From assembly GCA_022925895.1 (NCBI GenBank), contig JAKSYS010000391.1, positions 1-57,948 on the forward strand: 57,948 nt of DNA, read 5' to 3'. Made by a program: the position numbers and the translations under genes. This DNA comes from Fragilaria crotonensis (lineage: Eukaryota > Bacillariophyta > Fragilariophyceae > Fragilariales > Fragilariaceae). Below the pieces are notes generated by a model. That model was not told the DNA's origin. It was given only the letters and a program-made list of their open reading frames with translations, and did no database searches. Shown here piece after piece: positions 2 through 57,948 of the stretch; the first letter of the stretch is position 1; each line of letters opens with the position of its first letter.

Positions 2-128
2 TGTTGAAGTGAATGTCGTTCAAACGGTGAGCTACATAAATTATGGTTAGCTAGTGATTTGAGTGGCCCTGGACTCAGGCATGGTGACGCAGTCACAATG
101 ACCCTCCGGGTTACCTGGGAGAACAACA
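2..128 (-). repeat. 3' LTR of the copia element
   Basis: 127-bp copy of the repeat at 5333-5460, with TG...CA ends extended to TGTTG/CAACA. It is the 3' LTR because the coding direction is minus. It contains an 11-bp palindrome TGACGCAGTCA (91-101 region) that resembles a bZIP binding site and could act in U3; that role is inference. Confidence 0.9.
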
Positions 129-189
129 CACTCACCAGGGGCCAAGAAAGAATGACCGGAGGGTTGTGCAGAATTTGCACTCGCAAGTG

Positions 190-1949
190 GCGTAGGCGCG
201 ATATCGGCTAGGCAATCGAAATAATTGCGCGTCGGATTTGTGCGGAATGCAAGTACGCGGACCGGATGGCTTGATGATGAGACGGGATGATGTTTGGAGA
301 AGTAATCGGCGCGGTTCGTGTTGCCTTTACTCCAGTAAATTTGGAATTGGCCTTGGCGGACACGATCGCGGATCCAGTAGAATCGCATGTCGATGGCTTT
401 GGATCTTTCTGTTTGACCGTGTCGGTGGCGATGCCGCTGGCAGTGCTATTGTCGGTAGCCATGGGGTTGCTGGCTGTGGATGTCCTAACTCGTCGAGAGC
501 GATGCGAAGGGGACACGCCTTACCGTTGTGGAACAAGGCGCCAAGTTCGGCTTCCGCTGCGCTGGATAAGACTTCGCGCATGATGACACAACACGTGGAC
601 CGCCCCGTTGGGGGCCAGGGTAGGGACGGAGTTGATGTCGTGGTGGGACGATTGGTCAGGTAAAGTACCCAGCTGCGCGTGAGCGACCTTTGGCAACTGA
701 TAGGTAGGAGGCGTCGCTTTCGACGGCGAGGATCATGTCGCTCGCAGTGAAGAAACGGACGGAGGCATCGGGATGCGTGGCGCAGTAATTCAAGAGTTGC
801 GCCAACTTTTCCATGGTGTAGGTGGTGCTTTGCGAATGCTCGGTGGCGAGTTCGCCGATGGCAGTGAGGAGCGTTGAGTCAATGGCGCGTGCATAAAACA
901 AAGGGTACCCAGCACTTCGAGAATGCGGCGTTTGTCGTTGGCGTCGAGGGCAGCAGTGGTGTCGGGAGCCGCATACTGTGTTTTGGCGCCGTAGTTCGGA
1001 CGTTGCCATGGGTGCGGGAATGTTCAGGTTTGCGTGGTAGGGCGTGTTGGAAACGCTTAAGAGCGCGGTCGATGTAGCCAGGCATACTGATGTCGCACGT
1101 GCGCGCGGAATAATCCCAGTCAGTGTGAGGCCGCAATATCGGGCGCCGCTCCAGTCGCGACTCACTTGGTAGGTCGCTTCGAGGGTGGCAAGGAGGTGTT
1201 CGGCGTCCGCGATGTCGGTGTAGCGGATGCCAAAATCGTCAACAACTAAACTGAAGACGATGTCACGGGTGGTGTGGCGCCAGAGACCGGGGTCAGAGGT
1301 GCAGGTTCGTAGCCGTGGGGAGCGAGGAATTTGATGAGTTGATCATTTGCAAGCCGGCCTGCTTGGGGGAGGCCGTACATGCCGCGTCGGATTTCAACAT
1401 AAACGTGGCCATTGTGGATGAGGGGACGTAAATTGTACTGGTCGATGATGACGTCAGGAATCATATGGATGGGGATGCGCATGTACTCGTAGCGTTCCAT
1501 GGGTGTCCCGAGATAAAAATCTTTTAAGTCGGCGGTGAGGAACTTGGCATTTTTGGTGGAGAGGACACTGTTGATGAGCAGTTTGGCGGTAGTGAGGTCG
1601 GCGGTCTTGGTGCTGACATCGAATGGGTAGTCGACTTTGTCGCCGCCGCACGTCCAGCGAACGCGTCGCGGATTTTCTTTTTCGGGTCGGAAGGCAGACA
1701 CAACGCGCAAGTAGGTAGCTTTGCGTCCGCGAGGAATGGCGGATACTGGGATGAAGTGCATGGTGTTGGTGCCCTTGACGGCACCATAACCTTGGGCGAG
1801 GCGGCCGATTCGTCGGCGTTGATGCCCGCCAGAGGGCTCCGTCGCTGCATTGGCTGAGTTCGCGATATTCTGCGATCTGGCCGGTGTCCGGGTTGAAGGC
1901 ATTGCCATGCAAAGCGAAGTGGTGTGGCATGGTCTGATCACGCGTTTTG
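190..1949 (-). pseudogene. pol: copia pol, reverse transcriptase and RNase H part, frameshifted
   Basis: RT motifs follow in order: FLTADLKDFYLGTPMERYEY (catalytic Asp of motif A, near 1500), RRGMYGLPQAGRLAND (near 1360) and VFSLVVDDFGIRYTD (the DD box, near 1232-1262). The frame then changes into EATYQVSRDWSGARYCGLTL. RNase H remnants include AVESDASYLSVAKGRSRA (near 700) and the terminal MRFYWIRDRVRQGQFQIYW...NRADYFSKHHP (near 390-280). Frame breaks occur near 1250, 1000 and 650. The cytoplasmic role would be copying element RNA to DNA and degrading the RNA strand. Confidence 0.85.
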
Positions 1950-4074
1950 TGGGCGTCCGCGAGGATGTTGGCCAAAGCGATGGCGGCGACGTGTTGGAGT
2001 CGTTGTTTTCCTTGTGAACGAGTGCCGTGGATGGCGTGGGGCCGACGTTTGTTGGGGCACGGCAGGTGCAATGTTGCGGAGCTTTTGGGATGGACAGTTT
2101 GTGCGTTTTGAGCGCTTTGGTGGTGGGAGGTTACGGTGCGCGCGGCGACGACGTTTGCCGACGGTGCCAGTACTATTGTGAACGTAGTAGTCACAGGTGG
2201 CGTGGGTAGGGGGGCGAACGTGACACTTCTCGTGTCGAGAGTGGGGAGCTCCGCGGCGGCGGGGATGGCCGGAAGGTTGCCCACCCTCAGAGGTATGGCA
2301 GGGATAGGCGTTGATGTCGGGCCAGGATTGTTGGTTACCACCCTCAGAGGTGGGTCAGTGACGGCGACGTCCTCGAGAAGGTCGGGTTCGGTCACCGGCG
2401 ACGTTGGCGGTGCGTTTGTCAGCGTGCGGGTGGGTGCCGCGATGGACGTCAGGATGGACGTCAATTGCGTCAATGCGTCGTAATGACTGTCCGTCAAGGG
2501 AGCCAATGGCGACCCAGGCGTCGGGTTGCGCAGAGCATGTAAGATGTCGCGGATCCCGGCGAGGATGAGGTCGGTGGACGACGCGAGGGGCATTGGACAT
2601 TTTGTGGGAAACCATGCGAGCGTGTCGCAAACGCGAGTGGCACGGGTGTCCCACATCCATACCGTATAGCAGCGATACGAGTCCAGAGCTGGCCCGACGT
2701 ACCATCCGTCCTCACCGTGCGGGGACCATGTGGTACGTTCGTTGGGCTTGATGTGGACCAAGACGCGGATGCCGGGCGGGGCCAGCGGGGTGCGGTTAAA
2801 ATCAAACGCGCCGTGCATTTGGGCATGGGCGGAGAGTTTGGGATTGATGCGCGAGCCTCGGAGGAGATTGAGTGTAATTTCGGCCTGGGGTAGCAGTTTG
2901 TCCCAAAGGTGTAACGGGAAATTTTTGTCGACGCCACAGAGCCCAGCAATGAAGTGGTTTTTGAACGTGCGGATGGCGCGTTCGGCTGCATTTCGGCGAT
3001 GAAGGTTGGGGGGAACGAGTTGGTAGTCGACGTCTTCGGCACTCATGAACTGTTTTAAAGCAGTGGAGCATTCGTTATCCAGGCGTTGCAATTGCGGACG
3101 GAGTCCAGCTGCCACGAGGCGGGCATGGAGAACTTGGTAGCCAGCCAAGATGCATGGGCCGGTGCGACTGCGGAGCGGTGCAACAAGGATGCTGTTGCTG
3201 TCGTAGTCATACAAACAAGAATGTAGTTGTTGCCGCTGTTGGATGCGACAATAAATCTGCCCGTTTGGTCGGTGTGGATCTGTCCAGAACTAGGTTCGAA
3301 GACGGCTGCGAAACAGTTATGCGTGCGAATGTTAGATGGGTCGCTGGACGGAAGGCATCGTCGTCATCAGTCGGCAAGCTGGGCGTGATGGCGGTTTTGA
3401 CTTTGGTAGAATTTTTGTTTTGTCGGGTTTGATCCATGTGCCCTTTGACCATGGCCACGGAGTTGGGTGGATGTTTGGCTAGGGTCTGGGCCGTGAGACC
3501 CATGAAGTGCGGCATCCGTTAATTAACGCGCGTTTGAGCGTGGATAGCGCAGGCGAGAAAAGGGCAGCGTGGGCAAATGCAACAAGTTCGGCCGGCGTTG
3601 CGGAGTGCACTGCGGCGAAGCTGTTGTGAAGGGAAGGCGGAGCGTCGACGACGGGCGTGTTGTGCGGATCGAGGGGGCAACGAGATTTAAATGCCAGAGG
3701 CCGGTGGTGGGCGTTCGTGCGCCGGTGAGGATGAGTTCGTCGTCGAGATGGACGGTGACGATTTTGGCGTCAAACGTGACGATGCAACCTGCGTCGCATA
3801 ATTGCCCCATGGAAAGTAAGGACGCGGTTTGTAGTGCCGACAATGTGAACGCGGCGAGCTGCGAGAGGGAGGCGTGGAATGTCAAGCTCGGCTTCATGTG
3901 TTGAGTACATGATAGTGCCGTTGGGATTGGCAATACCAATGGGATTATTGGTGGGCCGTTTGTTGCGGACGTGGGCAGTGATAGTGCAGAAATGCGCGGT
4001 GCTCCTGCTATCTGCGATGGCACGCGTCGGGTGGAACGATGGTTGGGGGACCTACGGTAACAGTAGATAGACAA
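1950..4074 (-). pseudogene. pol: copia pol, protease-distal/gag-pre-integrase and integrase part, frameshifted
   Basis: The piece at 4074-3523 has a GAG-pre-integrase-like segment (LLSMGQLCDAGCIVTFDAK, then LTGARTPTTGLWHLNL). It is followed, after a frame change near 3515, by AKHPPNSVAMVKGHMDQTRQ. From 3214 the integrase core continues: RLDNECSTALKQF carries a catalytic Asp, and NAAERAIRTFKNHFIAG the catalytic Glu of the DDE triad. A long Pro/Thr-rich linker (about 2600-2000) leads to RT. Integrase would insert the cDNA; with several frame breaks this copy is probably not autonomous unless the breaks are assembly errors. Confidence 0.8.
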
Positions 4075-4106
4075 AATCAGAATCTGCGTTTAGAACGTTA
4101 GATAGA

Positions 4107-5300
4107 TTAGTTGTTTCCAGAGTCAAAGGTATGGTAGGCTCCCGCGCCGTCAGTTAGAGGGGAAGACGCAGGCAATTGACGAGGTCGTCCGGACGAGATG
4201 GTGTTGTTGCCACCCTTCATTTTGAAGGCGGTGGCATCGTCTTTGTGACCTTCGGCTTTACGATGGCAAGTGAGCGACGTGTGGTTGCGCTGGGGCTGAG
4301 CCCATGTGTCCAACAATAATACATTTTGCCGCCTTCAACTGTTACGTGGCGGGAGGCGGCATCGGTAGTGGCGGAAGGAGGCGGTATGGTGGCAGCGGCA
4401 GCTGTCTCAGTGGTCGTTGGAGTTACGATGGCAGCGGAGTGTGCTCCTGTGAAACCCGGCGTCGCCGGCAGTGAGGCGACGAATGCGTTCCTTGTTGCCG
4501 AGTTGGAACTCGTTTTGAACAGTGCGACCGTCCATTCGTCGACGGGGCGGAGTCGAAATTTTCGGTGGTCGTGGCGAGAAGGCCGGTCTTTCAATCATAG
4601 CCAAAGTGAGGGTAATGATCGTGATATCAGGGATGGGGACGCGTCCGAGAGTGGCAATTCGCTGAATATTGGAGATTTTGGCCCAAAGATCCTCGATAGG
4701 ATCGTCGAAGTTCCACGGCGGATAAGGCTGAACGGTTGCGTTCGAGTTCCTCGGGTGTCATGGTGCCGTATTCCGCCCGGAGGTGGTTGAGCATGGCTAA
4801 CGGCGTGACGTCCCCAACCAAAATCAGGATCCTCGAGTGCGCTGAGGAAGGAGGCATTGACGGCCGTTAAGAGCTGGGCTGTGAGTGCAGAACTGAGGCT
4901 GTTGTAAAGAGTTACGTCAGCGAGGGCATCAGTGTAGTTGCGTAGCGCGACGGCAATTGCAGCAGCAGTGCCTGCGGCCCGGGGGCGGTCCGGGATGGAC
5001 GGGGAATGATGAAGGGAACGCCAACGTGCAAGATACTCGGCAGGATTAAGGACAATGGCGAGATGGCCATGATTGCCGCCGCCGCGTGCCGACGGGACCG
5101 AACGCGTTAGTGAACAATTGGCGTTGAAGCAACTGTAGGGTCGTGTTCGTTGGTTTGCCCGGGATGGGCGTTAAGGTCTCGTATGGGAAATTGAATTTCG
5201 GAGACGAAGACATCCTGTAAACTTGTGGATTTTTCGACACGAGTTGTACGGATGATGGCGACAGTGAAGATGACTGTCGGTGGGGGAGCGGCGCTCGTTA
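4107..5300 (-). pseudogene. gag: copia gag, frameshifted
   Basis: Gag-like coding sequence lies in pieces in different frames. The N-terminal part (5240-5046) reads FPYETLTPIPGKPTNTTLQL, typical of diatom copia Gag. A middle piece (4857-4627) holds LNHLRAEYGTMTPEELERNR, the helical capsid region. The nucleocapsid piece spans a frameshift near 4300: the first half ends with YYCWTHG and the second continues NHTSLTCHRKAEGHKDDAT, together a C..H..C..H-type zinc knuckle. No start codon is clear. It would package element RNA in particles, but as written it cannot make one continuous protein. Confidence 0.75.
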
Positions 5301-5320
5301 TCGATGCCGAGGGGTGAACG

Positions 5321-5332
5321 TTTATGTAGCTC
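5321..5332 (-). promoter_or_regulatory. Putative self-complementary primer-binding site
   Basis: On the element's sense strand the 12 nt directly after the 5' LTR read GAGCTACATAAA. The same strand holds the complementary TTTATGTAGCTC inside the LTR (5371 down to 5360), 27 nt upstream of the LTR end. I see no match to the 3' end of initiator methionine tRNA. The arrangement is what a self-priming element of the Tf1 kind would show, where the 5' end of the mRNA folds onto the PBS. The function is inferred. Confidence 0.6.
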
Positions 5333-5460
5333 TGTTGAAGTGAATGTCGTTCAAACGGTGAGCTACATAAATTATGGTCAGCTAGTGATTTGAGTGGCCC
5401 TGGACTCAGGCATGGTGACGCAGTCACAATGACCCTCCGGGTTACCCGGGGAGAACAACA
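5333..5460 (-). repeat. 5' LTR of the copia element
   Basis: 128-bp LTR next to the start of gag on the minus strand. At 5360-5371 it holds GAGCTACATAAA (plus strand), the exact reverse complement of the 12 bases 5321-5332 that abut the LTR at the primer-binding position. Confidence 0.9.
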
Positions 5461-15373: not shown

Positions 15374-16023
15374 TGAAATCAAAAGACTTCGCAAAACTAA
15401 CCTTGCACAATCTATGAATTACGTCGTATATGGAAAAATCGTTGACGTCTGGATAAAAACATTTTGTTTTTGTATATATCCTACTATATTATAAATTAAT
15501 TGTGTGCGTGTGTGCGTGCGTGCGTCCGTCTGTTACGGAGTATGACCACTCTGGGGTACTGGATCAAATGAATACTGTCTCATACTCGGAGTATGATATA
15601 TGTCATACATGCATACTGGAGTACTCCGTAAGCGATGTCGGTAAGATTTGCATATACGTAGTTGCGTCAGTGCGTGCGTCTGTTACGGAGTATGACCACT
15701 CTGGGGTACTGCACTACTTGCGTATAGTACTGAACTGTACAAACAGTACACACAACCGTGCACAACCCATACCGTACACGTATTCCAAAAGTCCGACCAA
15801 TTGGGAGGTACCCACTAGTAGTATATAGTGTAATCTACAATCCGGCACTACAAATAGAAGCTGCAGAAATTTCAAATCGAAGGGCTCGCACAGCGGACAT
15901 GCTGGCTCCTCTATATCATTTGTACTGTTTCATACTTTATGATAGTTAGCTTTTGTGCCAGCACAGCAACGTCGCACAGCTGCCTCAGAGTTCCCATATG
16001 CATTTTGTCAAGCTACGTATCAT
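15374..16023. repeat. Intergenic with a diverged 150-bp direct duplication
   Basis: The block GTCTGTTACGGAGTATGACCACTCTGGGGTACTG (in two parts) occurs at 15528-15561 and again at 15678-15711, 150 bp apart, each preceded by a TGCG-rich tract. GTAC and AGTACT palindromes are dense. This is the upstream flank of the DUF6824 gene; no other gene is seen. Confidence 0.7.
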
Positions 16024-17304
16024 ATGAATGATAGTACTCGACAAAGAATATCCGGCGAACGCATGACCGACATCCAGATCATTGCTGATGAGCGCTGTAT
16101 TCGCGCACAAGCAGAAACAACACTAACAAAAACCAATCCGCATTCTTGCCCTCAAATGGACTGTGAAAGCAGCCTCGATAGACCGCGCATAAGTGGACCG
16201 GATACGCAACAGATGGATGGGATCTCAGAGATCCGGCCGACAGACATCATCCTTGGACGAGGTCCGGCGTTCTACAACAACCCAGGCAATATGATGTTTC
16301 GCAAGCTGTTAAAGGAACACGCGGTCCATTACAGGTACGAAGCCAGACTTAGGGAGAAGACCGAAATGATTACCCTACTGGTTTCCCAGCTTCAGGCGAA
16401 GGGATGTCGATTTCTCCACATGTCTTCGACAGGGGTCTGGATTGAGGCCCCCTCGCGCACATTGATCCAAAAGGTGGGTCATGGCCTACGCGATGCTCGA
16501 CTCGCAGTTGCTAAATCTGGTGACACCGTCACTGTGATTCCGAAGAACTCCCGTCCCTCCGTTACAAAGGAAATCCCAAGAGACTCTGTCACGCCCGTCT
16601 CACATGGAGAAGCCGAAACTAGTCAGGAAATATCGGGCAACACGAACGTGATCACAACGGACACGATGACTCCTCACTGCCATGCAACTCCAAATATGCT
16701 ACAGAAAAGTTTCAATCTTTTGATGGGTTCCACATCCGTATCTACTGTTCAACACATGCAAGGTGGGAAGATGTCAAATTTGGTGCCGACCCCAGAGACG
16801 GGACAACAACTCGTCGACACATACAAGACTTCCTTCCCCACCGAGCTGTTGGGTTTCGCTTCTCAGCAATCTCCTCACGTCGGACAAGGAGCCTCACCAG
16901 AGAAAGCAGGATTATCCTTCTTTGACCGCGAGATTGAAGAAGTTTGTGTGCCAAGGGACGGTGCTGGCCATGCATACAGCATAACGGAGCCGTGGCTAGA
17001 TCATCCCTCCTCCTCCTTTGATTTTGTCATTGAAGGTAGCCTGGAAGTGGAGCACCATTCAGAACAAAGCGAGGGCTGGCAATGCAACATGGATGATCTC
17101 TTTGGACTCCTACGTGTCTTCCCAAGTGCTGCGGCTCCACACGACGCTCATGTTGAAGGTGATGTGGATGTAATCTTGAAAATGGATGCAGGACTTGGCC
17201 GCGACGAGTCTTCTGACGACTGCCTTGTTCAATCTCAGTCTCAGCCTGTGGGATGCGCTGTCCCCGATGGACAGAGCCTTTGCCGTTTGTTTCGTAACCT
17301 TTGA
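16024..17304 (+). CDS. DUF6824-domain protein
   Basis: An intronless open frame of 426 codons from the first ATG (16024) to TGA (17302-17304). Residues about 70-160 form a DUF6824-like domain common in diatoms: IRPTDIILGRGPAFYNNPGN, then MFRKLLKEHAVHYR, then a GCRFLHM...GVWIEAP hairpin and KVGHGLRDAR. The LGRG and NPGN motifs and the final VGHxLR are the family hallmarks. The rest is Ser/Thr-rich and apparently disordered, with an acidic C-terminus (SSSFDFVIEGSLEVEHH). The family is often proposed to be regulatory or DNA-binding in diatoms, but no function is established. An ATG 13 codons downstream (MTDIQ) is a possible alternative start. Confidence 0.85.
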   Translation: MNDSTRQRISGERMTDIQIIADERCIRAQAETTLTKTNPHSCPQMDCESSLDRPRISGPDTQQMDGISEIRPTDIILGRGPAFYNNPGNMMFRKLLKEHAVHYRYEARLREKTEMITLLVSQLQAKGCRFLHMSSTGVWIEAPSRTLIQKVGHGLRDARLAVAKSGDTVTVIPKNSRPSVTKEIPRDSVTPVSHGEAETSQEISGNTNVITTDTMTPHCHATPNMLQKSFNLLMGSTSVSTVQHMQGGKMSNLVPTPETGQQLVDTYKTSFPTELLGFASQQSPHVGQGASPEKAGLSFFDREIEEVCVPRDGAGHAYSITEPWLDHPSSSFDFVIEGSLEVEHHSEQSEGWQCNMDDLFGLLRVFPSAAAPHDAHVEGDVDVILKMDAGLGRDESSDDCLVQSQSQPVGCAVPDGQSLCRLFRNL

Positions 17305-40825: not shown

Positions 40826-41869
40826 CGGGAAATCCCGCCTACAACAGGAGCTCCGACTTGCGACTGCTGCGAGGACATGTAGTAACGTAGTAGGTGTAGA
40901 TATATATCGAAGGGAAGTCGGCAAAAAGCGGCGCCCTTACTATGCTGCCGCGCTCGCTAACAACCTCGGGGGTGTCTCCGCCTTTACTCATGTATTGGCG
41001 GAGGTACCCGGTGCGGGCGGGCGGGTAAACTTAAACACTAGAGACTAGCCTCTTCAACGTGCTCGCTGCTCTGCTCAGAGCCGCGTTACACTCGTAGGCT
41101 TACTTGGGGTGATCTCGTCGAGCAACCCGAATAATGACTTCCTCTTTGTTCGGTGCGTTCAAGGCGTCGGTGGCGGTTCTTGGTGGTGCTGTGCATTCGT
41201 ACGCACGAGTGTGAAGTTCGTCTGGCAGTCACTCCGTCTGCGTTCCTGTCATCAGCGGGAAATCCCGCCTACAACAGGAGCTCCGACTTGCGACTGCTGC
41301 GAGGACATGTAGTAACGTAGTAGGTGTAAATATATATCGAAGGGAAGTTGGCAAAAAGCGGCGCCCTTACTATGCTGCCGCGCTCGCTAACAACCTCGAG
41401 GGTGTCTCCGCCTTTACTCATGTATTGGCGGAGGTACCCGGTGCGGGCGGGCGGGTAAACTTAAACACTAGAGACTAGCCTCTTCAACGTGCTCGCTGCT
41501 CTGCTCAGAGCCGCGTTACACTCGTAGGCTTACTTGGGGTGATCTCGTCGAGCAACCCGAATAATGACTTCCTCTTTGTTCGGTGCGTTCAAGGCGTCGG
41601 TGGCGGTTCTTGGTGGTGCTGTGCATTCGTACGCACGAGTGTGAAGTTCGTCTGGCAGTCACTCCGTCTGCGTTCCTGTCATCAGCGGGAAATCCCGCCT
41701 ACAACAGGAGCTCCGACTTGCAACTGCTGCGAGGACATGTAGTAACGTAGTAGGTGTAAATATATATCGAAGGGAAGTTGGCAAAAAGCGGCGCCCTTAC
41801 TATGCTGCCGCGCTCGCTAACAACCTCGGGGGTGTCTCCGCCTTTACTCATGTATTGGCGGAGGTACCC
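40826..41869. repeat. Tandem split-repeat array, 430-bp period, 2.4 copies
   Basis: Units start at 40826, 41256 and 41686 with the palindromic head CGGGAAATCCCG. The third unit contains module A only and continues directly into the recombinase coding end. Copies are nearly identical (a few substitutions such as G/A near 40900 against 41330), implying recent amplification. Confidence 0.95.
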
Positions 41870-43064
41870 CTTCGGCCAATGTGGCCAGCAGAGAAGATGG
41901 AAAGGGTGGGCCGCCGGGACCGGTGGGGAAGGGTGGGGGATTGAGGCGGTAGTCGCCGCCGCGAAGCATAATGGCGGCGACGCCCGCCATCACTGGCTGG
42001 GCTTGGACATGCAGGTAGCGGTACATTTCGTCCGATCGCCACCGACCGATAAGGCGGATGCGATCGGAGTCAATGCCGCCGCAGAGCATGGCCATGGCCC
42101 CGCCCGCGCGGGTAGAGCGGGCGGAAATATCGCATGCGGCGAAGTCGGTGAGCGCGGGAGGGAGTAGGCCAACAGCGCGACGGAGGATGGTGGTGACATC
42201 GGAGGGAAGGACGAATTGCCACCGCGCCTCCGGCGACTGGCGAAACGCGTTGATGGGCGTGTTCGGAGTGGCGCCGGAGAGACGAAGGCTGAGAAGGCGG
42301 CGGGTGAGAGCGGCGACGGGGCAGAGCGTGGGGTGGCCGCTCCGGCCGTGGCCCAGGGTTTCGCCTCGGACGCCGTTCTTCTGGTTTGTGAAGGTGACCG
42401 TGACGAACGTTGCCGCAAGCAAGTCATCGGGGGGACAGGACATGACGTCCAAACGACGTTGTCCAATCCACACGCCGATGTCCTGGAAACGGAACAGGTC
42501 ATCGGCGGCGGTGCGAGGGGTACCGCTGTATTCCCCCGGGCGCAACAAGAAATTAAAGGCGAGAATGAGACAGTCGCCGGCGGCAAAGAGGCGCGGCGAC
42601 ACGTGAAGGTTGGCCTCCGCGAGGTGATGCGCGCGTCGCAACACGAGCATCGGCAGAGGTTTGACCCGAGTGGGAGGGGGATCGGCCTTTTTCCACGAGC
42701 GGAGCACAGCCTGCTGGCGAAAGTCGAGCGCGCCGAAGGCGTTTAGGCGAGGGTCAACGGCCCCCACCCGGGTGAACGTCTGCGCCACGTGGCGGACGGC
42801 GTCCTCCACCGTTCGAGATCGAACGGCCCTTTCGCTGGGTGCGATGCGGCCGGTCCGGTATTGTTGGGCAAAGAGGAGCAGGATGGGGACAGGGTCCCCG
42901 GGAACATCTTGGAGATCGGGTCGGATGTTGGATCGGGTACAAAAACCCTCCCAGAGGCGCCAGGTTGCAGAGGCAGAATTCAGTGAAATCTCCCGCAAGT
43001 GTGGCGAATCCGCCATTGCCGGAGATTGACCCTTAACAATATAACAATCGACAAGAAGCGGCAT
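41844..43064 (-). CDS. Tyrosine recombinase of the DIRS-like element
   Basis: Open frame of 406 codons from ATG 43064. The N-terminal part (SLNSASATWRLWEGFC) is the core-binding region. The catalytic part has LLRPGEYSG (first Arg), ARSTRAGGAMAML at the HxxR box and IGRWRSDEMYRYLHVQ with the nucleophilic Tyr. The HxxR His position is Arg here. It would join circular element DNA to the chromosome. The stop lies inside repeat module A. The first ~28 codons overlap the 263-bp direct repeat, so the gene is intact despite the nearby insertion, but it is now 6.5 kb away from RT. Confidence 0.88.
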   Translation of the reverse strand: MPLLVDCYIVKGQSPAMADSPHLREISLNSASATWRLWEGFCTRSNIRPDLQDVPGDPVPILLLFAQQYRTGRIAPSERAVRSRTVEDAVRHVAQTFTRVGAVDPRLNAFGALDFRQQAVLRSWKKADPPPTRVKPLPMLVLRRAHHLAEANLHVSPRLFAAGDCLILAFNFLLRPGEYSGTPRTAADDLFRFQDIGVWIGQRRLDVMSCPPDDLLAATFVTVTFTNQKNGVRGETLGHGRSGHPTLCPVAALTRRLLSLRLSGATPNTPINAFRQSPEARWQFVLPSDVTTILRRAVGLLPPALTDFAACDISARSTRAGGAMAMLCGGIDSDRIRLIGRWRSDEMYRYLHVQAQPVMAGVAAIMLRGGDYRLNPPPFPTGPGGPPFPSSLLATLAEGVPPPIHE

Positions 43065-49733: not shown

Positions 49734-49996
49734 TCAGTGAAATCTCCCGCAAGTGCGGCGAATCCGCCATTGCCGGAGATTGACCCTTAACAATATAACA
49801 ATCGACAAGAAGCGGCATGCAACTTGATCAATTATAAAAAGAGTGAGCAGATCTAGAATCTAGTTCCAAAACCGGTCCCACCATATGGACCAACAGGTTA
49901 TCCGTGCGTGCGCGTCAGCAGTCCTCCACGTCATCGTGGGACACGCGCCTTGTATGCTTGTCCGAATATCCCGCACTCATGACAGGATTCATTCAG
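49734..49996. repeat. 263-bp direct repeat, right copy
   Basis: Second copy of 42980-43242; its right end is continuous with the RT-RNase H coding frame of the DIRS-like element. Confidence 0.97.
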
Positions 49997-51932
49997 AATC
50001 GCACCGATGTGTAGATTGGCTGGCATGGAGCGCCGCCGTGACAGCGCGCCAATCACTGCCGAGAGCATCTCGGGATCCAGGGTCAGCAACGTCCACGAGG
50101 TGGCCTGGGGATAAGTGGAGTCAAAGTGAGAGAGCAGGGCTGCGTCAGAAAGATCCCACCGTCGGCTGGCGTCGTCAGCCATCACATTTACTTTGCCAGG
50201 TACATAATCGTGCTGCGGGACGTAGCGGTGGTAACGCTGGTGGAGAGCGCCGAGTCGCAGAAGGTACGCGCGAGGGGTGCAGGCCGTGGAGGAGCCTTTC
50301 GTGGCCCACACGAGCGAAGCTCGATTGTCGCCGCCTAGCCAGATAGGCCGTTCGGCGACCGTAGGAAGTGCTTGGACCAGTATCTGCTTGTGGGCCAGCG
50401 TGCCGGCGAGCTCCAGATCAGAGATTGAAAGCGTGCCCGTGCGGTTGTCGCTGGTTGCCAGGGAAGTCTGCACAGCGGAGGGGAACTCGCTGCGCCACAC
50501 AATGGGCTGTGCCGAGGAGGCGAACCAGACCCCGCCCATGCCCCGTTGGCAGGCGTCGCAGGCGCCGCAGGCGATGGGCTCCCCCACGGGAACGAGTTCC
50601 CGGAGACGAGTGGGCCGATTGCGAAGGGAATTTGCGATCAGGCGAAAGTCGGCGAGACTGTCGAAAACGCGACGGTTGAGGCGCACGCGGTGGCGGTCAC
50701 CACCTCGAAGGGCATCTTGTAGGGCAGAGAATAAACCGCGAGCACCAGGCAAGGCAGCCGCCATAGAGCGCAGTTCGCCAAGGAGCTGATGCCACTCCGT
50801 GATGGGGGCCCGTCGCCGCGTCGTTGGAAAGGCGTCAAGCAAGGTATACAGACGCGCAAGCCGGTGAGGGGGGAGGCTCAGAGTTGCAGCCTCCGTGTCG
50901 AGGTCCCATCCCAGAATTCTTTTCTGAGTCGACCAGTATGCATCACCTTGGCGCAACTTCTTAACTGAGACCGGGTCCTTGCGATTGGGGTCATCGGCCA
51001 CTGATAGGGGCCGGAGCACTTGATCGATCGCATGCAGGGCGCAGCGAAGGACACGTCGTTGGTGGCGCTTCGTCTGCGCAACCGGGATAAAGTCGTCGAC
51101 GTAGACGTCCCCGTAGGCAAGCGGAGAGGAGCGAGGCATTGTCAAGCCCATACGGGCCGGGCGCGGCGCCCACTCTCCTGTCGGGGGCGTCGTGTCGGGC
51201 GGCGGAGTCGCTGCAAGGGACTCTAAGTGGTGCGGCGGGGGGTTGTCGCGCCGCCAGGTGCCGCGTTCAGGAGATCGCATGATGTCTCCGTGCCGATGTG
51301 GAAGGAGGGCTTTCCACCCACCCTATGGGCAGGGCGAGTGGGAAGGCTACTAGAGGCTCGTGGCCGTCCGAAGGTAGGATGACGCCGAGCTTTGGTATGT
51401 CGCGACTTTGAATGCCGATGCGGTAAAACCCGTCTGCGATATCGATCTTGCCCAGCGAGACCGGCCCGTAATATGGATCCGCGTGGACCACTTTGGCCAG
51501 GACGCGTTGTAAGGTTTTTCCAAACTGCATTGCTTCTGGCGGAGCAAGCCGTGCCGTCTCGTCGTTGACACCCGAGTATGTGTAGTCCACGATCAAACGA
51601 GAACGTCGGTCCCGTTGAGGCACAACGCCGAGAGGAGACAGCCGTAGGTGTGCAAGCTGGAGCGCTGCCTGGAGCGGCAGAACCGTCCAGAAACCTTGCT
51701 TGCAAAAATCGAGCATTTCGAGGCAAACAAATTCCACCTCGTCCTTGGCCGAACGGTGGGACCCCCGTTCCGCCGCCCGTCGGATGCGGTCCTTGTCCCA
51801 GGGGCCCGTGTGTAGGGGTACTCCCGCGCCTCGTCGGCGCAAGTGCTCCATCAAGCGCGCCGCCTTGTGCGGTACCGAAGCCGCCGCCACCGAGATGTCC
51901 GCTAGACCACCGCGCTCACTCAAAACAAACAA
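49931..51932 (-). pseudogene. DIRS-like reverse transcriptase and RNase H, frameshifted
   Basis: The frame 51932-51267 carries RT motifs LGVVPQRDRRSRLIVDYTY, SLGKIDIADGFYRIGI (catalytic Asp) and ALPIGWVESPP. The frame then breaks: FHIGTETSCDLLNAAPGG is read in a second frame, and the sequence resumes in a third from 51280. There AYGDVYVDDFIPVAQTKRHQ holds the catalytic YVDD box. RNase H follows with CDACQRGMGGVWFASS, SISDLELAGTLA, WLGGDNRASLVWATKG and NVMADDASRRWDL. The C-terminus (ILNESCHECGIFGQAYK) lies in the right 263-bp repeat. The two frame changes within about 50 bp (51230-51330) make this copy inactive unless they are sequence errors. Confidence 0.85.
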
Positions 51933-52136
51933 ATCCCAAGAGCCAACATTATCTAATTTAGACGCCGCTTGCGTCGCGTACTAACGTAAAGTTTCTTCTG
52001 CGCGCGTGAGACAGGGGGCCTGTTCGACACGCACGCGCTTGGGCGCCCGCGAGACGTCGTCGTCGACGAGCCAAGGGGGTGCGTGGAGAAGCCAGGTTGC
52101 AGGGGCTGCAGCAGCCTCTGCTGCCTGGCCTCCCCA

Positions 52137-54311
52137 TCAGGTGGCGGCCACCGCTGCGGGAGCAGCGGTCAGATGAGCGCGCATATGAGCCAGGAGGCGA
52201 GCGCGCTTGCCCGCATTGGCAAAGGGGCGGTGGGTGCTGGAGCGCCCACAATTGGTGTAGCAGCCGCCCCGATGCCACCAGGAGACGCAGAACTCTTGAC
52301 CCCCGTCGTTGGGTGGTGGTGGATGCGCGCGCAGGAGCTCCCTCATCTGTGGGCGCAGTTGCAGAGCTTCGAGCTCGGTGTCGCGAGCGGGATTGAGCAC
52401 ATACGTCCCTTGCGTGGCGACTCCCCCTCCCGTACTGGTGCGCCCGCTTGCCGTGGACGCGAGGTTGGAAGCCACCGATGCGGTAGAGGCACGAGTAGAG
52501 CGCGTAGCGACGGAAACGGAGGCTGCCGGCGCCAGAGTCACCGCACTTGGCTCCACCGTCACCGAGGAAGGAAGGGGGAGCCAATCCGATGACATGTGGA
52601 AGGAGCCCCGCTGTAGACTCTGATGCAGGCCTTGGAAGCTTGGGAGAGCCACTGCGGTAGTGCCATTGCTCACCTGCAAAGTTTGCAAGTACTCGTAGAC
52701 ATTAATCTGAACGTGCCGGACCACGTGCGCAGGGTAAACCTCGTACCAAGGCGTCCCCCTCAACACCTGATGCTGCCCCAGGTAGAGAGGGAGGCGCTCG
52801 TTGAATGTGTTGGCGAGCGTCCACATGCACGCGACAAAGGGGTTCGAGGCACCTGGTCCCTGAAACAGGGTGTGGGCGAGGACCGCATAGCGCTGGAGTG
52901 TGTAGCTCACTTGGTTGAGGTCACGGGGAAGCTTGACCTTCTCCTTCTCCCGAATCTCGCGAATGTCGGCTAAGGATGCGTTAGCCGTTCCTTGATCCAG
53001 CTGGTTGGCCACCATCGCGTGGTCCATAGCGCGATAGTGGTCATCCGTTCCCGTGTACGTGACCAGAAAGGGCTGGCAGCCCGCCGTAAGATCGTCGGAG
53101 CCATGACCGGCGAAATTGAGACTCGCCACCATTTGCTTGAGTCCGGTGGTGTCGGCTGGACAGTACACATCGGGCGTGAGGCCTCGAGCGGCACACACCC
53201 GAGTCAACTCCTGCTGCAGGATCGACTGCTGTTCCCCCTTGCCACCGCGCGCGAGACGATTCCAAAGGGGGGCCAACTCCTCCACAGTTGCCACCTGGCA
53301 ATACCGCTGGAGAACCGTGTAAGTCTCACGGTAGGCTTCCATGACGCCTTTCGGTTCACGTCCGCGTCCGCTAGCGCCTCCGACATTCTCGGCCAGTTGC
53401 TGGACAGCGGCGATCATTGGGTCTAGAGAGTGGGTAGCCGTTGCCAAACGCGGGCCATGACGCCCAGGGAGGTCACTCAGAACCTTAGCCGCTACATAGT
53501 TGCTGACCGCAGCTGGCAAAAGAAGCAGTGGGAACGACTGAGCCACCGCTGGCATGCCCGCAAGATCGCCAGCCCCGCCGCGAGCGGTGCAGGCTACACG
53601 GAGCCATGCGAGTACATCCGCACACGCCTCCAACACTTCGTCCGCAGCAAACATTCCGTGCAATTCCTGATACGCCGTAGCCGGCGAGACACCGTCGCGA
53701 TGCACAAGTGTAGCCGCATACTTGGTAGGTAGGACTTGAGTCAACCGGCACCGAATCAACTCGGTCTCGGCAACTTCGGGAGCAAACGGGCCCAGGAAGA
53801 CACCCGGTGGCGCAGCATCCAAATGATCCATCATGACTGCCATAGTTGGGACTCTCACACCAGCACCACCCACGAGCGTGAAGATTGTGTTGTCAACTTC
53901 GACGACCGGAATCTGCGCTGCTCGCACGTCGCTCAGGAGGCCCATGCTGAGGTCAACAGCTCCACCGCCGTCGCCTCCGGGCAACTCAAAATAGCGCATC
54001 ATACGGTGTACTAGCACGCGGATTTCCACTAGAGCACCCATAGTCCGAGCAAGACACAAGAAGCACATGGGGCGGCGATCGCTAACGGCGAACGTCAGCT
54101 CGCGGAGACTCGCAGGGGTTGGGCGTTCGCCACCGCCAGCCACCTCTGTGAAGCGGTAGCTGGTCAGTAATCTGTCGACTGCTGGCTCGCCCGCTTGAAA
54201 CCCCGCCGCTGAGTAGAGTTCGCGGTAGTTACCGGGGTTCAGTGCCTCGGCGTCATGGGGTGGTGGTTGCTGCGCCATGACCGACAAGATTGTCGTGTCT
54301 TGTGCCTGCAA
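52137..54311 (-). CDS. Gag-like protein of the DIRS-like element
   Basis: Open frame of 724 codons from ATG 54311 (MQAQDTTILSVMAQQ; the second Met is a possible start). No long-range homology is recognised. The position upstream of RT and the C-terminal zinc-knuckle-like FCVSWWHRGGCYTNCGRSST with following H (C-x8-C-x3-C-x5-H) mark it as the structural, RNA-binding protein. A Thr/Ser/Ala-rich linker precedes the knuckle. The frame is fully open, unlike RT. The start codon lies 5 bp from a 46-bp piece of repeat module B. Confidence 0.75.
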   Translation of the reverse strand: MQAQDTTILSVMAQQPPPHDAEALNPGNYRELYSAAGFQAGEPAVDRLLTSYRFTEVAGGGERPTPASLRELTFAVSDRRPMCFLCLARTMGALVEIRVLVHRMMRYFELPGGDGGGAVDLSMGLLSDVRAAQIPVVEVDNTIFTLVGGAGVRVPTMAVMMDHLDAAPPGVFLGPFAPEVAETELIRCRLTQVLPTKYAATLVHRDGVSPATAYQELHGMFAADEVLEACADVLAWLRVACTARGGAGDLAGMPAVAQSFPLLLLPAAVSNYVAAKVLSDLPGRHGPRLATATHSLDPMIAAVQQLAENVGGASGRGREPKGVMEAYRETYTVLQRYCQVATVEELAPLWNRLARGGKGEQQSILQQELTRVCAARGLTPDVYCPADTTGLKQMVASLNFAGHGSDDLTAGCQPFLVTYTGTDDHYRAMDHAMVANQLDQGTANASLADIREIREKEKVKLPRDLNQVSYTLQRYAVLAHTLFQGPGASNPFVACMWTLANTFNERLPLYLGQHQVLRGTPWYEVYPAHVVRHVQINVYEYLQTLQVSNGTTAVALPSFQGLHQSLQRGSFHMSSDWLPLPSSVTVEPSAVTLAPAASVSVATRSTRASTASVASNLASTASGRTSTGGGVATQGTYVLNPARDTELEALQLRPQMRELLRAHPPPPNDGGQEFCVSWWHRGGCYTNCGRSSTHRPFANAGKRARLLAHMRAHLTAAPAAVAAT

Positions 54312-55135: not shown

Positions 55136-56564
55136 TTAGGTTCTAACTAAACTCCTCTTCCAGGTTCCCTTCTCTGTCTCTCCAGAACCTTCTTCTGTCT
55201 TCTTCCTTCCTTGTGTCTCCTTCTTGTTCTTCCCAGTTCTTTTATAGTGGACTTCTGTCCAATCTCCTACATGTTTAATGTTTTCCTCCAACTTTCCATA
55301 GTTTTCGTCCTCCGATGGAATCTTGGTTTGTTGGACTCTTTGGAAATCCGTAGTTCGATTAATTTCGAATTCTTTATCCCAGTTCAGTCGTGCGTTCGAT
55401 TCCGAGTTCACGTCTGACTCGAATCTGACATTCCGTCCAAACGTCGAATCTCTTTCAGCTTCGCCAACGACAGTATTCACTGTCTCACCGGTACTGGACT
55501 TATCCAGTAGCCTACTATCCTCGACATCCTCCCTCCAACAATCCAGAGTTCCATCTCGTATGTTCTTCGCGTGTTTCGTATGTAATTTCTCAGGACAGTT
55601 CTTGTTCAATATGTCCGCTGCATTCTCTTCCGATCGAATAAACTGCGTTCAAATAACCGTTATCTTCCAGTTCACGGATAAAATGAGCACGTACATCGAT
55701 ATGCTTCGTTCTGGCTCCGACATGTTGATTCTTGACCAAATAAATCGCTCCAAGATTATCCTCGTACACTTTTCCCATATGACGTTTCTCATCCGGTCTT
55801 CGTATGCCTTCGTCGAGTAACATCATGATAAACTTGTTCTCGCATGCACCTCTCGCCAAACTGATATACTCCGCTTCGGTACTAGATAGTGTAACGACGT
55901 GTTGGGTCTTTGATTCCCAATGTACCAACGTTCCACCTAACGTATGCAGTCCCGAAGATATACTCTTGCGATTGTCCGTATTCTTGGCATAGTCGGAATC
56001 CACCATAGAAATAGGTCGTAGTTCCTTGGGTCTCCTGTACGTAAGCCCCTCGTATGGTCGTAACTTGATATGACCGACCATTCTGTCCAATGCCTTCCAG
56101 TGATCCTCACCTGGGTTCGATAGGTGCTGTGCCAGTTCTCGAGCTGCGTTGGCCAAATCCGGTGCCAGTTTCGTCGTTAAATACATGATCTTTCCAACCA
56201 TTGACCTGTAATCCGTCATATTAACCGTAGGTCCTTCGTTTTTACTTAGGTACTTGTTCGGGTATCCGGGCGTGTCGTATGTCTTGACTTCCTTGCCAGT
56301 AATCTTCTCGTAGGTTTCCACGATTTCATCTTCAAGTTTGTTCATCTTCGCAATGATAATGACATTTCCGTTTTCGTCCACGCTCCAATCGTACCATACT
56401 CCTAAGTGCTTCTTCAACTTTCCGAGATCAGATATATTGAATCGTTCCTTAAGCTTCGTCTTGAATTCCTCAATCGCCTTCTTCGATCCAACCAAAATTA
56501 CGTATCCGTGTACAACTGCCATGAGGGTCATACGCCCTTTCGTGTCTTTCAGTAGTACATGCAC
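55136..56564 (-). pseudogene. pol: copia-2 pol: RT thumb, RNase H and charged tail, frameshifted
   Basis: It begins out of frame with the preceding part (HVLLKDTKGRMTLMAVVHGY). The YVDD-box position reads VVHG, so the RT active-site Asp pair is missing. RNase H motifs follow: SMVDSDYAKNTDNRKSISSG, TLSSTEAEYISLARGACE, VYEDNLGAIYLVKNQ and RTKHIDVRAHFIREL. Near 55630 the frame changes (ECSGHIEQ against ENAADILNKNCPEKLHTKH). The second frame then continues 130 residues of Glu/Lys-rich tail after GTLDCWREDVEDS, ending at 55136. Inactive as written. Confidence 0.82.
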
Positions 56565-57948
56565 GGATCAACCAGACTTTGAATCATATTCATGTACTTC
56601 GTCAAGTACTTACGTAGTGTCTTCATAAAAGTCTTGGGACATCCACTCCTCCATACATCGGACGAGTCAACATAATACAATAACGCCTCAATTCGTCTTC
56701 CGTTATATATCCCAATTCAACAATACCTTCCGCCACTCTGCAAATACTGGCTTGTCGTCTTCAAGTTCCGCGTTTAAGAACGCTGCTTCGATGTCAATCA
56801 TCTCGATCGTCCAACCTTCGTCTTGCCTGTACAGTGCGATAGTAATTGCGAGTCTGACCGTAGTATCCGTTGCAACAGGTGAAAATGACTCTGTATAGTC
56901 CACACCAGGTACCATCACGTAGCCCTTCAGTACGATTCTGCTCTTGTACCGTAGTGTGCCGTCCTGTTCCTCCTTGATCTTGAAAATCCACTTAACAGGT
57001 ATCGGTTTTCGTCCGTTTAACTTGTCCCTTGGGAATTTCTTCCATGCGTCCCGTGATATGAAGTTATTAATTTCGGACTTAGCAGACGGTATCCACTCAT
57101 GCTTCTTTGGTCCAGTCACAGCTGCACGAAATGTCTTAGGTTCGCCTGGGTCCGACGTAAGCATGGTATTAAATACCAGATGCGCAATTCGAGTTCTGCT
57201 TCTTGTACGCGTCCCGGGCTCATCGTTTTCGATCACAACTGGACTCTCAATTCCAAGTTTTTTCAATTCTCTTTCCAATGGTGTTGTCCTCTGTTTTTGT
57301 TGTTCCTCGACCATTTCTTCGGCATTTTCGATGATTGTTTGTTCTGTATGCAACTCCACAATTTGCTCTTCAACGCTGTCGCCTTCTTTTCGCAATATGA
57401 TGACGTCTTCGTCGTCATCGGAGTCGGAATCGAAAAGAATTGAATTCGGAGGCACGTCCATTTTCGTTTCGTTCTCGTCGTGTACCTCGTCTTTTTTCGT
57501 TCTCTCTTGCTCAATCATCGACTCTATCCTCCCTGCTGAAGACATGGGAGTCTCAGCCGGTTGCAATGCAGTTATGGTTGCGATTTCCTCATCATACTCT
57601 GGAATGAGATGAATTTGGGGAGTCAATTCCTCTTCATCTGCCGCCAATTCAGCTTCCACCTCTTCCAGATCTTCACCTAGGACCATCTGACGGTCAAAGG
57701 CATCGTCCATTGTCAGTCTGATGTCATTTTCAGCCTGTCAAGTCAGCCCATGCATGAATATCTCTTGTTTCAACAATTTTTCCACTGTAGGGATTGTACA
57801 TCCTGTACACATCTCTTGCATGGTTCTCAGCATAGCCAACCATAATCATTTTGGTGGCTTTCTCCTTGAACTTCCCCTCATTGTCCCTCTGTTTGTAACA
57901 TAGCCAATTCGGCCATACTCCACTGTGCTACCGTATATCGTGCACGGG
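56565..57948 (-). pseudogene. pol: copia-2 pol: integrase C-terminal region and RT fingers/palm, frameshifted
   Basis: 57900-57740 reads KATKMIMVGYAENHARDVYR and YNPYSGKIVETRDIHAWADL, the post-integrase region, then a stop. From 57710 an acidic linker precedes RT: FRAAVTGPKKHEWIPSAKSE, PIPVKWIFKIKEEQDGTLRY, YTESFSPVATDTTVRL and MIDIEAAFLNAELEDD (catalytic Asp). The frame ends near 56703 (LNWDI), and another continues GYITEDELRRYCIMLTRPMY, so there is a frameshift there. Confidence 0.82.

Follow-up and report, generated by a model that had tools for sequence, protein, structure and literature searches.

Complementary LTR and primer binding site sequences point to self-priming in a likely copia-type retrotransposon of a diatom

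How does an LTR retrotransposon whose primer binding site (PBS) matches its own LTR start reverse transcription? The question is raised by an element on the minus strand at positions 2 to 5460 of the window (the whole stretch of 57,948 nucleotides that was analysed). A preliminary description had noted that the 12 nucleotides next to the 5' LTR can pair with a segment inside the same LTR and had proposed the element as a candidate for self-priming. The coordinates and the length of the match are right: positions 5321 to 5332 exactly complement positions 5360 to 5371 on the minus strand, leaving a loop of 27 nt. The self-priming reading is itself well supported by comparative sequence, through complementarity, position, conservation and co-change of the two segments, and we consider it highly probable that a divergent copia-type LTR retrotransposon of a diatom primes its own reverse transcription in the manner of Tf1.

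Anatomy and classification of the element

The features of the element are as follows.

2..128, minus strand: 3' LTR, recognized as a direct repeat and from copies elsewhere
129..139, minus strand: polypurine-type tract ahead of the 3' LTR; relatives carry CTGGTGAGGGTG at this place
656..1342, minus strand: reverse transcriptase (RT) continued in another frame, with VVDDFG, recognized by eye
1246..1941, minus strand: part of the RT with MYGLPQAG, used as the query for relatives; alone without a Pfam match
1454..3214, minus strand: open frame upstream of the RT, integrase-like by eye, with a subthreshold SH3_retrovirus match (E 0.0031)
5321..5332, minus strand: PBS, sense GAGCTACATAAA, adjoining the LTR; from complementarity and the LTR boundary
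5333..5359, minus strand: loop (U5) of 27 nt between the paired arms, putative template of minus strong-stop DNA
5333..5460, minus strand: 5' LTR of 128 bp, TGTTG...CAACA; from the direct repeat and copies elsewhere, with the boundary taken from target duplications of relatives
5360..5371, minus strand: candidate self-primer segment within the LTR, sense TTTATGTAGCTC, proposed RNA 5' end; exact complement of 5321 to 5332
5372..5376, minus strand: CATAA directly upstream of the primer segment, conserved when read in relatives, without a match in the PBS

In the sense direction the 5' LTR starts with TGTTGTTCTC and finishes with CTTCAACA, and GAGCTACATAAA stands directly next to it. The window copy is decayed, with broken reading frames, and the contig start coincides with the end of its 3' LTR; RT frames of more than 1,300 amino acids without stops are found in relatives. 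The hallmarks of LTR retrotransposons are present, namely, TG...CA LTRs (with TA instead as the LTR end in some copies), 5-bp target duplications and a polypurine tract. The LTR boundary was examined in eight related pairs of 5' and 3' LTRs, two of which (C676 and C108) were unusable. Within each of the six usable pairs the LTRs are 99 to 100% identical, indicating recent insertions, and all six are flanked by exact 5-bp target duplications flush with the LTR ends (AAGTG, CAGGA, CCTTG, CCGTG, TTCAT and TAGAG). The boundary thus falls between CAACA and GAGCT or at its equivalent, meaning that the PBS adjoins the LTR and lies outside it. The PBS-LTR match of the window copy accordingly begins at offset 0 from the LTR. 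A 12-nt complement at that offset has a chance expectation of 7.6e-6 for a 128-bp LTR (analytic, equal base frequencies), and an equal match occurred in none of 20,000 shuffled window LTRs. The upstream part of several LTRs (L029, L114 and L115) also holds TGACGTCA, a CRE-like palindrome, which may be linked to bZIP control.

The element had been labeled copia beforehand, and the evidence for this label is weak. All six RT fragments of relatives matched RVT_2, with a best E value of 2e-6 and every match under the curated cut-off, and the RT parts matched RVT_2 only. An integrase-like region precedes the RT, as judged by eye and from the one SH3_retrovirus match, itself below the cut-off, and the profile search of the window frames gave no match to an integrase core. 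Since the RVT_2 matches are consistent across relatives yet all below the cut-off, and the integrase-like region comes before the RT, the sequences suggest a likely copia-type element of a divergent lineage. The Tf1/sushi group of Ty3/gypsy was considered as an assignment and rejected, because the RT matches RVT_2 only and the integrase-like region lies before, not after, the RT. A PDB profile search returned a single match at E 0.3, which is meaningless.

The preliminary label of the host as a diatom is supported by the silicon transporter family, with 19 matches in the genome, 18 of them above the curated cut-off (best 4e-193), against one weak match, below the cut-off, in 14 control genomes; the host thus fits a diatom. 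Scanning viral contigs with the RT fragment gave three pattern matches and no confirmed relative, and megablast against plasmids gave no match.

Other features lie elsewhere in the window. Positions 55590 to 57710 (minus strand) carry pieces of another copia element, distinct from the first (RVT_2, 2.5e-21 and 7e-5), whose 5' end falls beyond the window. Frames at 41844 to 43064 and 49931 to 54311 (minus strand) resemble by eye, through motifs that we take to be typical, a tyrosine-recombinase (DIRS-like) retroelement; three frames scanned from this region were without a Pfam match at E 0.001. A DUF6824 domain (E 2.6e-16) is present in the protein encoded at positions 15955 to 17304 (plus strand).

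Conservation and co-change of the two arms

The genome searched comprises 62.1 Mb in 881 contigs. The exact 12-mer occurs at 96 places, compared to 12 for the reversed control word. With one mismatch allowed, the total (292) does not exceed that of the control (314), so the excess is limited to the exact word. Fifty-eight of the 96 exact copies are arranged as 29 hairpin pairs, whose loops measure 27 nt (3 pairs), 28 nt (4 pairs), 30 nt (17 pairs) or 33 nt (5 pairs), and the other 38 are single. Twenty-one of these single copies, some read and the remainder assigned by distance, lie 4.2 to 6.0 kb from a pair, as expected of 3' LTRs; the remaining 17 were read, and all stand in LTR or PBS context, some of them decayed. 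Across 16 distinct copies with LTR and PBS, mean identity per column is 99.5% and 99.0% in the two arms, figures biased upwards because the copies were chosen by near-matches to the arms (at most 2 and at most 3 mismatches), compared to 78% in the upstream LTR, 85% in the loop and 79% downstream of the PBS. Single copies with one altered arm exist in C624, C764 (two places) and C14, and the last PBS base is altered in C344 and C624; copies with one altered arm look like decay.

Do the two arms change together? The preliminary description had proposed comparing related copies for covariation, with a changed LTR segment beside an unchanged PBS counting against self-priming. Searching with the RT fragment at the protein level gave 63 genomic places, among them two divergent families with different words, and in both of them the PBS and the LTR segment differ jointly. 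The C709 family, with an RT 57% identical to that of the window element, carries TTATCAACTTC in the LTR and GAAGTTGATAA at the PBS, pairing over 11 nt around a loop of 45 nt. Its own 3' LTR and the C457 place both stop matching at precisely the base taken as its LTR end, which confirms that end, and C503 is a second 5' end with both words, 56 nt apart. The C709 11-mer is found at 39 genomic places, compared to 97 for its reversed control, a lack of enrichment that is as expected of a small family. The C50 family (RT 46 to 48% identical) has 5' ends in C50, C52, C175, C460 and C554; in the three of these five in which the arms were read, ACTAAGCTG in the LTR faces CAGCTTAGT at the PBS, with 9 nt plus a G-U pair and a 31-nt loop. 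The LTR ends of both families were set independently by their 3' LTRs, and their LTR arms were located through complementarity itself. The C709 arm nevertheless lies at the corresponding place, as CATAA-C-TTATCAACTTC beside CATAA-TTTATGTAGCTC. Each PBS matches its own LTR over 9 to 13 nt and LTRs from a different word class over no more than 6 nt. A changed LTR segment with an unchanged PBS was not found between families; within them it would correspond to the decayed single copies described above.

The covariation alignment has 20 rows (19 distinct) and 12 pairs, giving 228 cells, of which 94.7% are paired. Both sides have changed at 6 of the 12 pairs (12 cells) across families. None of 500 shuffles reached the observed paired share, the number of double-change pairs or cells, or the covariation score, and the number of pair types was reached by 1 of 500. 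Sliding the register by 1 to 3 columns drops pairing to 26 to 45%; at a slide of -3, four pairs (5 cells) are still double-changed, with 28% of the cells paired. Cells count sequences, and because copies share ancestry, the independent events number about two, each a replacement of the word. The hairpin of the window copy folds with a z score of -5.98, that of C709 with -2.52 (5 of 200 shuffles equally good) and that of C50 with -0.91 (37 of 200 equally good), and fold energy by itself is a weak test of the hairpin.

Could the complementarity have arisen by chance? The LTRs are AT-rich here, and the C709 and C50 matches are reached by 5 and 6 of 20,000 shuffles, respectively. However, the low expectation given above holds for the window LTR alone, two further families match with other words, and the covariation across families speaks against coincidence, making this explanation extremely improbable.

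Alternative primers and alternative roles of the hairpin

Another explanation is priming by a tRNA or, as in some copia elements, by an internal fragment of one, with the LTR match being incidental. A tRNA complementary to the PBS had been named beforehand as evidence that would overturn self-priming, and none was found among 63 tRNAs scored out of 2,258 candidates, a list that may be incomplete: neither the 96 places of the exact 12-mer nor the 39 places of the C709 11-mer overlap any of the 63.

Two distant relatives, C76 and C137 (RT 47% and 44% identical), bear on this explanation. They share AGTTATGGGTCTAATA, a word of 16 nt located about 3.6 kb before the RT (in L116 for C76 and at 60133 to 60148 in C137), and in C76 it comes after CTACAACA, which resembles an LTR end. 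An 11-nt complement of this word was not found nearby, the word was not found in the 63 listed tRNAs, and no inverted repeat of at least 7 nt was found in a 291-base C76 stretch, which includes only some 11 bases of the probable LTR. The shared word resembles what we take to be the anticodon loop of initiator tRNA, which would mean half-tRNA priming, and C76 and C137 are possibly primed in this way. Because their word has no 11-nt complement nearby, self-priming may be confined to part of this clade.

For the families with paired arms, priming by a tRNA is very unlikely. The resemblance in C76 and C137 and the possible gaps in the tRNA list lend it some support. Half-tRNA primers are also described for several plant copia lineages in the available text of PMC6317226. 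Against it, besides the lack of overlap with listed tRNAs, the unpaired 12-mers are traced to 3'-LTR distance (21) or to LTR or PBS context (17), and incidental matching leaves the co-change of the arms unexplained.

The hairpin might instead be a structural RNA signal, acting in packaging, in dimerization or, in the manner of the retroviral U5-IR, as an initiation stem, with priming done by another RNA. Covariation indicates that the pairing is maintained but is silent on its function, and Tf1 itself is described as requiring RNA structure beyond the primer duplex (a title cited in PMC7175516). Yet in all four LTR types compared, pairing starts precisely with the base that directly follows the LTR, as priming needs; such a hairpin would bury the entire PBS; and no PBS begins with the TGG expected of a tRNA 3' end. 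We therefore regard a purely structural role as unlikely, though less so than priming by a tRNA.

Proposed mechanism and relation to known systems

If the element primes itself, the transcript would begin with the first T of TTTATGTAGCTC (TTTATG), the RNA 5' end would fold back onto the PBS, and the element's RNase H would nick after base 12. The released 12-mer would prime minus-strand DNA through the loop (27 to 33 nt, or 45 nt in C709 and 31 nt in C50), and the very short strong-stop DNA would transfer to the 3' LTR portion of the RNA. The place of the RNA start is suggested by the sharp end of pairing: it goes no further than TTTATG although the adjoining upstream CATAA is conserved, and the next base in most PBSs is a C that is unable to pair, with one base more paired in C16. 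With the nick after base 12, the loop alone would serve as template, so that minus strong-stop DNA would be only about 27 to 45 nt, and poly(A) addition would have to fall within the last LTR bases or downstream of them. Should the primer be able to serve as template for the daughter PBS, that PBS would inherit any change made in the LTR arm, so that LTR and PBS would remain matched and give the matched changes seen across families.

This arrangement is like that of Tf1 and Tf2 of Schizosaccharomyces pombe and Tj1 of S. japonicus, in which the PBS directly after the LTR complements an LTR segment that has been proposed, or shown, to form the start of the RNA. In Tf1 the first 11 RNA bases are described as pairing with the PBS and being cut between bases 11 and 12 (PMC7175516), compared to 12 paired bases in the window element, and Tj1 is described as similar to Tf1 (PMC4600332). 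These yeast elements belong to gypsy (Tf1/sushi), whereas the diatom element combines an RT of the RVT_2-matching kind with an integrase-like region before it. Priming is shown for Tf1 and predicted for the diatom element, whose loop is short (27 to 33 nt).

The preliminary description knew of no self-priming copia element in a diatom. For copia as a whole this does not hold, as the available text of a survey in plants has 12% of its elements predicted to self-prime, among them the copia TAR lineage with Houba and Osr-1 (PMC6317226); for diatoms it stands, as no report was found in the one open-access library searched, with most subscription papers outside its scope. The criterion used for plant TAR, an LTR complement of at least 10 bp starting 0 to 5 bp after the LTR, takes in the window element (12 nt) and C709 (11 nt), while C50 (9 nt) falls below it. 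Host and lineage are different, and the LTR-PBS covariation seen in the diatom families was not found described for TAR in the available text of PMC6317226.

Among copia elements of diatoms (CoDi; PMC2806351 and PMC2774666), which are placed with GalEa in copia branch 1, no statement on priming was found in the available text of these two papers; the main text of the first lacks the word "tRNA", and its single "PBS" is the buffer (PMC2806351). In fungal GalEa copia elements an unusual hairpin site is described as replacing the PBS, and its authors found no LTR complement (PMC5445492), whereas the PBS of the diatom element has one. In the literature available here, Tf1 is the element for which self-priming is demonstrated; the other cases, mostly Tf1/sushi gypsy elements together with one plant copia lineage, are implicated or predicted. 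Against this background, we lean towards the view that Tf1-style self-priming arose independently in a diatom Ty1/copia lineage and was kept while the primer word was replaced at least two times.

The element adds to these a lineage in a stramenopile, with recent near-identical copies and compensatory LTR-PBS change across three words. If self-priming is true, these elements would be independent of host tRNA primers, and escape from tRNA dependence becomes testable in diatoms. Such elements could escape annotation filters that require a PBS resembling a tRNA, and the short loop would offer a test of the minimum strong-stop DNA sufficient for strand transfer.
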